Assembly: GCF_008729015.1 (NCBI RefSeq)
Contig: NZ_RKSM01000001.1
Span: 2,976,001 to 3,040,000 of the forward strand
DNA: 64,000 nt
Source of the DNA: Haloarcula sp. CBA1129
GTDB lineage: Archaea; Halobacteriota; Halobacteria; Halobacteriales; Haloarculaceae
Direction of reading: 5' to 3'
The position numbers and the translations under genes are program-made. Each line of letters starts with the position of its first letter. Position 1 is the stretch's first letter. Shown here piece by piece: positions 8,693 through 10,408 of the stretch. The notes below the pieces were generated by a model that worked only from the letters and a program-made list of their open reading frames with translations, did not search any database and was not told the DNA's origin.

Positions 8693-8837
8693 ACCTAGTA
8701 CAGTGGCGTCGTGACTGAGTATTCGTCCGCTATGGGTATGCAACAGCAGTGAACTCGCGACTATGTGTATAGTGCCTGTCAGCCACCCGTCGATGACGAG
8801 CGAAAGCACGAAGCCGAGCGGGACCCACGGTAGCACA

Positions 8838-9212
8838 ATGACGACGTGTCTGCTCGCCACCAGTTCCGTCCACGTCACCGCGGCCGCCGCTGACTACTTG
8901 CAGGACCGCTTCGACCCGGCAGATGAGGACGATATCGTCGTGGTCGCCGTCCGCGACTCCGATGCTCCATCGCGTGACGCTGGTGACGCCGTCAACGTCG
9001 CCCGCTCGCGGCTCGCGTCGTTCATGCCCGCGACGGAGACACGAGAGGGAGCGCCCGTGACGGAGATACTGGCAGCTATCGACAAGCACGATCCGGACGA
9101 ACTCCTCATCGGTCCACATCGCGGAACCGACGACAGCAACGGTGTCGGGTCGACCGCTCAGGAACTCCTTGCCCGCGTTGACCGCCCCGTCATCGTCGTG
9201 CCAGCTCCTTAG
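8838..9212 (+). CDS. UspA-like universal stress domain protein
   Basis: A 124-residue protein with the alpha/beta pattern of a universal stress protein: a first strand TTCLLATSSVHV, a middle strand DIVVVAVRDSD and a C-terminal IGPHRGTDDSNGVGST followed by ELLARVDRPVIVVPAP. The last block resembles the G-x2-G-x9-G-S nucleotide-binding motif of ATP-binding Usp proteins. ATG 8838 is chosen because residues before it are a polar stretch unlike the family. The stop overlaps the convergent ParA-like gene by 4 nt. Confidence 0.8.
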   Translation: MTTCLLATSSVHVTAAAADYLQDRFDPADEDDIVVVAVRDSDAPSRDAGDAVNVARSRLASFMPATETREGAPVTEILAAIDKHDPDELLIGPHRGTDDSNGVGSTAQELLARVDRPVIVVPAP

Positions 9213-9937
9213 CGAGAGAACAGGCCGTCGTCCTCGAAGGCCAGATCGAGGTCGACATCGAGCAGGTCCTCCGCCATCGCTCCGACAGTCGGTGCGACAT
9301 CCGCATCGGGGTCCGTCGCGAGCGGTCTGGATGCGTCCGGTCCGATGTGTGGAACGGTATGTGCCGCGTCCTCGATAGCGTCGCCGTCTTCGCCGCGCAC
9401 GCTGGTCGCCACGACGGCTGTGGCCGGCGCGCCGATGTCCCGGAGGCGGCCCCGCTGTCGCGGAAGCAGGTCGCTGCCTCGCTGGCTGGCCGGCACCACG
9501 AGTGCCCGCCGCTGTGCGGTCGTGGCGGCGGCGACGGCCTGATTCGCTGCGACCGGCGGCACGTCGAGCAGCACGTGGTCGAACCGTTCGGCCGCCGCTT
9601 CGATGGCCCGTTCCAGCGCCTGTGCGCTCTCGGCGGTCTTTGCGCGAGCGAGGCGCTCGAACGGCGCGTGGGCCGGACAAATTTCGACCCGCCCGTCTGC
9701 ATCGATGTCCCACTCGAACAGCGCGTCGTCAACCGTCGCGTCGCCGACAGCTACCGCGGTCGCGTCGGCATCGAGCCGTCCGTCGATATACGTTGCCAGC
9801 CCCTGCGTGCCGAAGGCCGCGTCGACGACGGCGACGGACCGCCCACCACGGGCCAGCGTCGCCGCCGTCTCGACTGTCAGTCTGGTCGTTCCAGCCCCAC
9901 CGGTACACCCGACGAACGCGAGCGTCGAAACCCCCAT
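9209..9937 (-). CDS. ParA/MinD-like protein with degenerate P-loop
   Basis: A 242-residue protein with the overall MinD/ParA layout: an N-terminal strand and loop, VAVVDAAFGTQGLATYI (switch-like) at about 34-50, and HVLLDVPPVAANQ (Walker B-like DxPP) near 120. The deviant Walker A loop reads GCTGGAGTTR at residues 10-19, so both lysines of the canonical KGGxGKT are threonine (positions 12 and 17). ATP hydrolysis is therefore doubtful. Related haloarchaeal proteins are usually called ParA-family proteins. A 9-bp inverted repeat overlaps the expected promoter (9951-9974). Confidence 0.8.
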   Translation of the reverse strand: MGVSTLAFVGCTGGAGTTRLTVETAATLARGGRSVAVVDAAFGTQGLATYIDGRLDADATAVAVGDATVDDALFEWDIDADGRVEICPAHAPFERLARAKTAESAQALERAIEAAAERFDHVLLDVPPVAANQAVAAATTAQRRALVVPASQRGSDLLPRQRGRLRDIGAPATAVVATSVRGEDGDAIEDAAHTVPHIGPDASRPLATDPDADVAPTVGAMAEDLLDVDLDLAFEDDGLFSR

Positions 9938-9979: not shown

Positions 9980-10408
9980 TTACGCCTGCTCGGCGACGAT
10001 GTCGCTCTCGATGGCGTCCAGTTCGTCGTCGGAGAGGTCGGGCCGGTCGGTGACCAGCGTGTGAATCGGCCGGCCGCCGTCGTCCTCGAACCGCGGGACG
10101 ATGTGGCCGTGGACGTGGGGCACCTCTTGACCGGCCGCTTCGCCGTTGTTGAACGCGACCGTGCTGGCGGGGGCGTCGACGGCTGCCTCGACCGCAGGGA
10201 CGAGTTCGTGCAGGGTCGACAGCACCTCGCCTGCCACGTCAGCCGGCGTGTCGTTCAGCCGCTCGTGGTGGGTCTTCGGGATGACGAGTGTGTGGCCCGG
10301 TGACAGGGGGTTAGCGTCCAGAAACGCCAGTACGGTGTCGTCCTCGTAGACGGTTCGACCGGGGATCTCACCGGCGACAATGCTACAGAAGATGCAGTCC
10401 TCGCTCAT
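9980..10408 (-). CDS. HIT family nucleotide hydrolase
   Basis: A 142-residue histidine-triad protein. The triad is VPHVHGHIVPR with His98, His100 and His102, where the middle-to-last His is the nucleophile for nucleoside phosphoramidates or dinucleotides. CIFC (Cys5, Cys8), His47 and His98 form the structural zinc site found in many HIT proteins. The length is normal for the family. It follows the uracil-DNA glycosylase gene by 34 nt on the same strand, and the pair is likely cotranscribed. Confidence 0.93.
   Translation of the reverse strand: MSEDCIFCSIVAGEIPGRTVYEDDTVLAFLDANPLSPGHTLVIPKTHHERLNDTPADVAGEVLSTLHELVPAVEAAVDAPASTVAFNNGEAAGQEVPHVHGHIVPRFEDDGGRPIHTLVTDRPDLSDDELDAIESDIVAEQA

Follow-up and report, generated by a model that had tools for sequence, protein, structure and literature searches.

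A large family of haloarchaeal proteins of the ParA/MinD type lacks both lysines of the P-loop but retains a highly conserved pocket, a predicted MinD fold, a linkage to a HIT-domain gene, and a phyletic profile closely matching that of DUF7858. As far as our searches show, the archaeal lysine-less family, the companions of its altered P-loop (T18-R19, E23, and T44-Q45-G46-L47) and its coupling to DUF7858 are new; no published lysine-less haloarchaeal ParA was recognized in a literature search judged mostly by titles and the starts of abstracts. The function of ParA/MinD proteins is attributed to an ATP-driven switch for which both lysines are required. A lysine-less family with a kept pocket and one partner raises the question of what this fold does without a hydrolysis cycle.

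The altered P-loop and its conservation

The window, that is, the entire 64,000-nucleotide stretch of the Haloarcula sp. CBA1129 genome analyzed here, contains on the minus strand an ORF (9209..9937; ATG at 9937, stop at 9209) encoding a 242-aa protein (P0002) that was characterized by its translation, a match to AAA_31 (33 bits against a cut-off of 27), its relatives and its predicted fold. The neighbors of this gene in the window encode HIT, UDG, Usp and RNase H-like proteins; the universal stress protein gene (8763-9212, plus strand) is convergent with the ParA-like gene and overlaps its 3' end by 4 bases. Where ParA/MinD proteins contain xKGGxGK[ST]T, the ParA-like protein contains GCTGGAGTTR, so that the P-loop reads T12-G-G-A-G-T17-T18-R19 (9881..9904, minus strand) in place of KGGxGK[ST]T. 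In the alignment of the family profile to 1hyq, the MinD of A. fulgidus, T12 corresponds to the signature Lys and T17 to the catalytic Lys of KGGTGKTT, which, together with the codons at 9904-9881, bears out the claim of the earlier note that Thr occupies both lysine positions. The switch-like Asp and the Asp-x-Pro-Pro that had been described as retained were both found as well, namely, D39 in the switch I region D39-A-A41-F-G-T44-Q-G46-L47 (9797..9823, minus strand), and D125-x-P-P in the Walker B/switch II region D125-V-P-P-V-A-A-N132 (9542..9565, minus strand). At position 41, the window protein has Ala where the profile alignment shows the second Asp of the 1hyq DAD; the usual loss of this Asp and the near-invariance of R19 had been missed.

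For the residue tally, 172 loci were reduced to 139 distinct trimmed proteins, and the P-loops were read in these 139, compared with 241 matching genomes. Lys is found at neither the signature nor the catalytic position in any of the 139 distinct orthologs, and close orthologs with GKT, which the earlier note had named as the refuting finding, do not exist among them. A sequencing error, local mutation or decaying pseudogene, for which the unusual motif itself and nothing else speaks, is refuted by open-frame orthologs from many families that have lost the lysines too and has a negligible probability; the copies in pieces in two genomes (G338:C1:2053275-2053859 and G397:C3:135036-135457), both of which still contain DUF7858, are exceptions. 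Threonine is less strictly kept than the absence of Lys: position 12 is Thr in 88 orthologs, Ala in 31, Val in 19 and Cys in one, and position 17 is Thr in 122, Ala in 14, Val in two and Ser in one, so that 16 orthologs have Ala or Val there. Because Thr is not strictly conserved at either position, it is not a one-for-one catalytic replacement. The question whether Thr is conserved across Halobacteria thus has a split answer, with Lys absent from all orthologs read and Ala, Val, Cys and Ser admitted beside Thr; by sequence alone, either of the earlier suggestions, a nucleotide-binding pseudoenzyme or a family using a different residue, fits. Judging from these sequences, the conserved trait is the absence of Lys combined with an Arg at position 19, which is present in 136 of the 139 orthologs. 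The only three without R19 (L031 and L032 with Thr, L079 with Trp) offer ready-made tests of what this residue does.

The rest of the pocket is conserved to a much greater extent than the protein as a whole. G13, G14, G16, T18, E23, D39, T44, G46, D125 and N132 are present in 139 of 139 orthologs, whereas the majority fraction averages 0.63 across 235 positions, which argues for strong selection on the pocket and against decay. The DxD of switch I has a second Asp with a catalytic role, which is missing in 133 of the 139, position 41 being Ala in 126, Asp in six, Asn in four and Ser in three. The family alignment (A1) consists of 58 rows chosen from 88, four duplicate loci (L039, L040, L091, L092) having been dropped before the 88-row view. 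The named loci, taken as the best 80 among 202 relatives, were partly found with P-loop-derived patterns, so that their rows are biased towards the motif, whereas the rows from protein searches are unbiased. Within the CBA1129 genome, the other ParA/MinD-type loci whose P-loop was read contain GK[TS], two of them with Ala at the signature position. Two ParA-family loci of this genome (L101, G000:C1:919058-919561, and L102, G000:C2:3414-3917) have equal scores and the same P-loop stretch but are located on different contigs.

Relatives of the ParA-like protein were detected at E <= 1e-15 in 241 of the 391 class genomes searched. Among the matches listed (E <= 1e-12) in a profile search of the phylum (294 genomes), members of the family scored 246-338 bits and all others 56 bits or less; the sole listed match outside the order, from a genome of the same phylum (G445), scored 49 bits and so falls into the lower-scoring group. 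All named records, the best 80 of 202 relatives, are haloarchaeal by title and come from Haloarcula, Halomicrobium, Halorientalis, Halorussus, Haloferax, Halorubrum, Halobacterium, Haladaptatus and other genera. On this sequence evidence, the family appears to be confined to Halobacteria. A plasmid or viral gene was rejected, given that the plasmid collection yielded zero family matches at E 1e-5 and that none of the 42 pattern-candidate stretches in viral contigs encodes a relative; a defense protein was rejected as well, PADLOC having produced no match.

In a tree of 20 family rows (out of the 58 in A1) and 30 canonical haloarchaeal rows (out of the 34 listed), the family forms a single clade (100/100), separate from the MinD1-like one, and its stem measures 2.2 changes per site. 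On these grounds, an origin by recent duplication of the neighboring MinD1 was rejected. The AlphaFold2 model built from the 58-row alignment (pLDDT 94.0, pTM 0.92) has Soj, ParA and MinD as its best PDB matches in Foldseek and the MinD 1g3q as its top match in VIA-align (Z 27.1, 221 residues, rmsd 2.5); according to this model, the ParA-like protein is of the MinD (SIMIBI) fold. The C-terminus of MinD is an amphipathic, basic membrane-targeting helix. The last 20 residues of the ParA-like proteins, of which the net charge alone was examined, are acidic (mean -3.5, positive in 8 of 139).

Gene neighborhood and co-occurrence with DUF7858

The gene for the HIT-domain protein (9980..10408, minus strand; 99.5 bits to Pfam HIT) is located 42 bp upstream of the ParA-like gene, a spacing from which co-transcription of the two is probable. 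Of the named loci, the 76 that exceed 8 kb were counted, leaving out four shorter ones (L149, L174, L177 and L191): 66 have an upstream HIT gene in the same orientation, which is within 400 bp in 53, and in 10 no HIT gene was found. In one Halobacterium locus, a 7TM histidine kinase gene (L204:4278-5957), and in one Haloferax locus, a gene for a DUF7847 protein (L202:5078-5920), is situated between HIT and the ParA-like gene. The 13 genomes tested all contain a HIT gene, including 12 without a family-level ParA-like match, indicating that HIT is independent of the ParA-like gene; HIT as an obligate partner is therefore unsupported.

The other flank is, in many relatives, occupied by DUF7858 followed by TFB. 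DUF7858 was found in 49 of the 80 named loci (the best 80 of 202 relatives), on the opposite strand in 48. Past TFB, a composite of three loci (L150, L175 and L204) includes a short canonical MinD1-like ATPase, DUF7857, DUF7855, DUF7504, DUF7854 and MCM. The block MCM-DUF7854-DUF7504-DUF7855-DUF7857-MinD1-like-TFB-DUF7858, itself a composite of several loci, thus places five uncharacterized families close to the replicative helicase; the MCM of L204 carries an intein. In the neighborhood counts, DUF7858 and TFB matched 48-49 other loci, compared with about 34 for the MinD1-like ORF and 27 for that of MCM, so that the distal part of the block is reached in fewer loci. The label MinD1-like is derived from sequence and gene place, and the gene order suggests that this protein may correspond to Haloferax HVO_0225. 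A literature search found no paper naming DUF7854, DUF7855, DUF7857 or DUF7858. In CBA1129, the ParA-like gene is separated by about 121 kb from DUF7858 and by about 119 kb from the MinD1-like gene, with a TFB-like ORF recognized by eye between the latter two.

The ParA-like protein and DUF7858 occurred together in 231 genomes in the two class searches, and after direct inspection, in 236 of the 245 genomes having either, including at least two genomes with a partial DUF7858 match (G140 and G266). Ten genomes that appeared to contain the ParA-like gene only were re-inspected: DUF7858 is present in five and missing from four, and the tenth (G101) retains a remnant that, at 22.7 bits, falls short of the cut-off. 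The class searches differed in their draws (391 against 382 genomes), that for DUF7858 being smaller than that for the ParA-like protein. Of the four genomes with DUF7858 only, G338 and G397 contain the ParA-like gene in pieces, and G100 and G218 have no family-level match. The final count is five genomes with the ParA-like gene only, one of them with the DUF7858 remnant, and four with DUF7858 only. In the three genomes with partial DUF7858 matches (G101, at G101:C1:2683702-2683809, G140 and G266), the ParA-like match contains no internal stops. The 20 genomes listed as having no match in each class search are an identical set. Two genomes (G312 and G066) lack both genes, which are carried by other members of their genera; around the HIT gene of these two genomes, HIT is in place, and tblastn (E 1e-3) detected no remnant of either gene. 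Because DUF7858 is near the ParA-like gene in so many of the named loci, a single deletion could take out the two together and exaggerate the agreement of their profiles, and physical adjacency can account for part of the co-loss. Better evidence of coupling comes from lineages that keep both genes unlinked, such as the CBA1129 genome.

The DUF7858 protein was modeled from an alignment of 38 of the 49 proteins (A2) as a helical structure with pLDDT 82.4 (94-98 per ten-residue block over residues 31-140). HTH_28 was matched weakly by nine of the 38 members (E <= 0.1, best 0.0008), and the unrelated Bag6_BAGS by 10 of the 38. Foldseek returned nothing below E 0.001, with the DNA-binding domains of ParB/Spo0J and KorB among the top non-significant rows; in VIA, the best Z was 4.7, with the RecQ C-terminal domain and DUX4 homeodomains followed by LuxR-type and other HTH rows. 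Sequence searches of PDB and NCBIfam yielded nothing useful. DUF7858 is a small protein, helical in the model, that plausibly binds DNA.

Candidate functions of the lysine-less protein

We tentatively favor, at somewhat less than an even chance, a nucleotide-holding, poorly or non-hydrolyzing ParA-type platform that works with DUF7858. The family would be a haloarchaea-specific, single-domain branch of SIMIBI proteins in which the P-loop has turned into GGxG[T/A]TR. A nucleotide, probably ATP, would most likely still be held, by analogy with E. coli BcsQ, hydrolysis would be poor or nil, and the protein would serve as a stable platform, probably a dimer, in place of a cycling ATPase, with DUF7858 as its probable client. 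Nucleotide binding, slow hydrolysis, dimerization, contact with DUF7858, and a role near DNA or replication genes are inferred. A true pseudo-ATPase, with the pocket empty of nucleotide and the conserved residues keeping the loop geometry of a scaffold fold, is possible but rather doubtful: the loss of both lysines throughout the 139 orthologs and the near-universal absence of the second Asp from switch I fit such a protein, as does the tolerance of Ala and Val at positions 12 and 17, but the invariance of the phosphate-loop glycines, T18, D39 and D125 goes beyond the needs of a scaffold, and BcsQ, as described in the available text of PMC11470070, binds ATP with a similar loop. The nucleotide-holding platform is favored over the empty pseudoenzyme.

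An active NTPase in which the lysine is replaced by R19, by R95/R98/K100 of the FERLARAK motif, or by R164 appears unlikely. These residues are indeed widely conserved (R98 in 128, K100 in 125 and R95 in 125 of the 139 orthologs, R164 in 99%), but R19 gives way to Thr or Trp in three orthologs, and the second switch I Asp is usually gone too. It is still more improbable that the protein is the regulatory half of a heterodimer, offering a dead partner face to the canonical MinD1-like protein with its GKGGVGKST loop. Such a protein is encoded near the ParA-like gene, beyond DUF7858 and TFB, in some relatives, and in the CBA1129 genome as well, but its profile (E 1e-35) agrees more poorly, with 211 genomes shared, 59 having MinD1 only, and 30 the ParA-like gene only, some of which may fall outside the smaller MinD1 draw, and the two clades are widely separated on the tree. 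Canonical MinDs, which the earlier note had suggested looking for as a partner, are thus present in the genome, but by phyletic profile, the strongest genetic partner found is DUF7858 and not a MinD. Extending the platform reading, a hydrolysis-independent relative of ParA/ParB can be envisaged, albeit as an improbable scenario, in which an ATP-locked, lysine-free dimer would position or clamp a DNA-binding DUF7858 near the replication-linked MCM and MinD1 genes, with HIT tuning the nucleotide pool or a ligand.

Comparison with known systems

Loss of both lysines is already known in the SIMIBI fold and is compatible with ATP binding, on the precedent of BcsQ in the available portions of the sources cited here. 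Table 1 of PMC9178275, in the part available, gives the P-loops of BcsQ and McdA as RGGVGTT and SGGQGKT, respectively; the E. coli K-12 record of bcsQ, annotated as a pseudogene, reads GVRGGVGTTTI and VVDAC. In the available text of PMC11470070, BcsQ is said to form a nucleotide-driven sandwich dimer with ATP bound, and BcsRQ is termed an 'ATPase complex', so that BcsQ may not be inert; the PDB title of 6ybb specifies a BcsE-BcsR-BcsQ complex with ATP bound. BcsQ, as far as these sources go, shares with the haloarchaeal family the ParA/MinD fold, the lack of Lys at both positions with Thr at the catalytic one, and, by its record, also a switch I motif without its second Asp (DAC in place of DxD), but it is a bacterial protein involved in cellulose secretion together with BcsR and BcsE, has Arg at the signature position, and contains TTT where the family contains TTR. 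The ParA-like gene lies outside any bcs cellulose operon, bcs families being absent among the neighbor proteins searched. Against the family profile, BcsQ scores 18.7 bits compared with 44.6 for the archaeal MinD 1hyq, which makes it at most a distant relative and a precedent by analogy. With the BcsQ models, the scores were 27.4 against a cut-off of 21.3 for PF06564 (MipZ is also just above its own) and 19.8 against 157.85 for TIGR03371. Cyanobacterial McdA is likewise a ParA-type protein without the signature Lys and matches the predicted fold (6nop, Z 21.8) but, according to the same part of PMC9178275, retains the catalytic Lys.

The best structural matches are archaeal MinD proteins (1g3q, 1ion and 1hyq with Z 27.1, 26.5 and 22.2), from which the family differs by the absence of both lysines, the usual absence of the second switch I Asp, and the acidic C-terminal tail. 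The ParA-like protein scores 43.2 bits with the MinD model TIGR01969, for which the cut-off is 201.75, a value also missed by the canonical MinD1-like paralog (117.1) and by the other matches from the same genome (best 198.5). The SegA/SegB and ParA/ParB systems resemble the haloarchaeal pair in the genetic coupling of a ParA-type protein to a small, possibly DNA-binding partner, but the P-loop of ParA is canonical, as is that of SegA, and DUF7858 has no significant fold or sequence match. Finally, the family bears on reports, in the available part of PMC11621097, that the oscillation of Haloferax MinD4 is independent of its Walker motifs and that the effect of MinD2 on motility is largely K16-independent.
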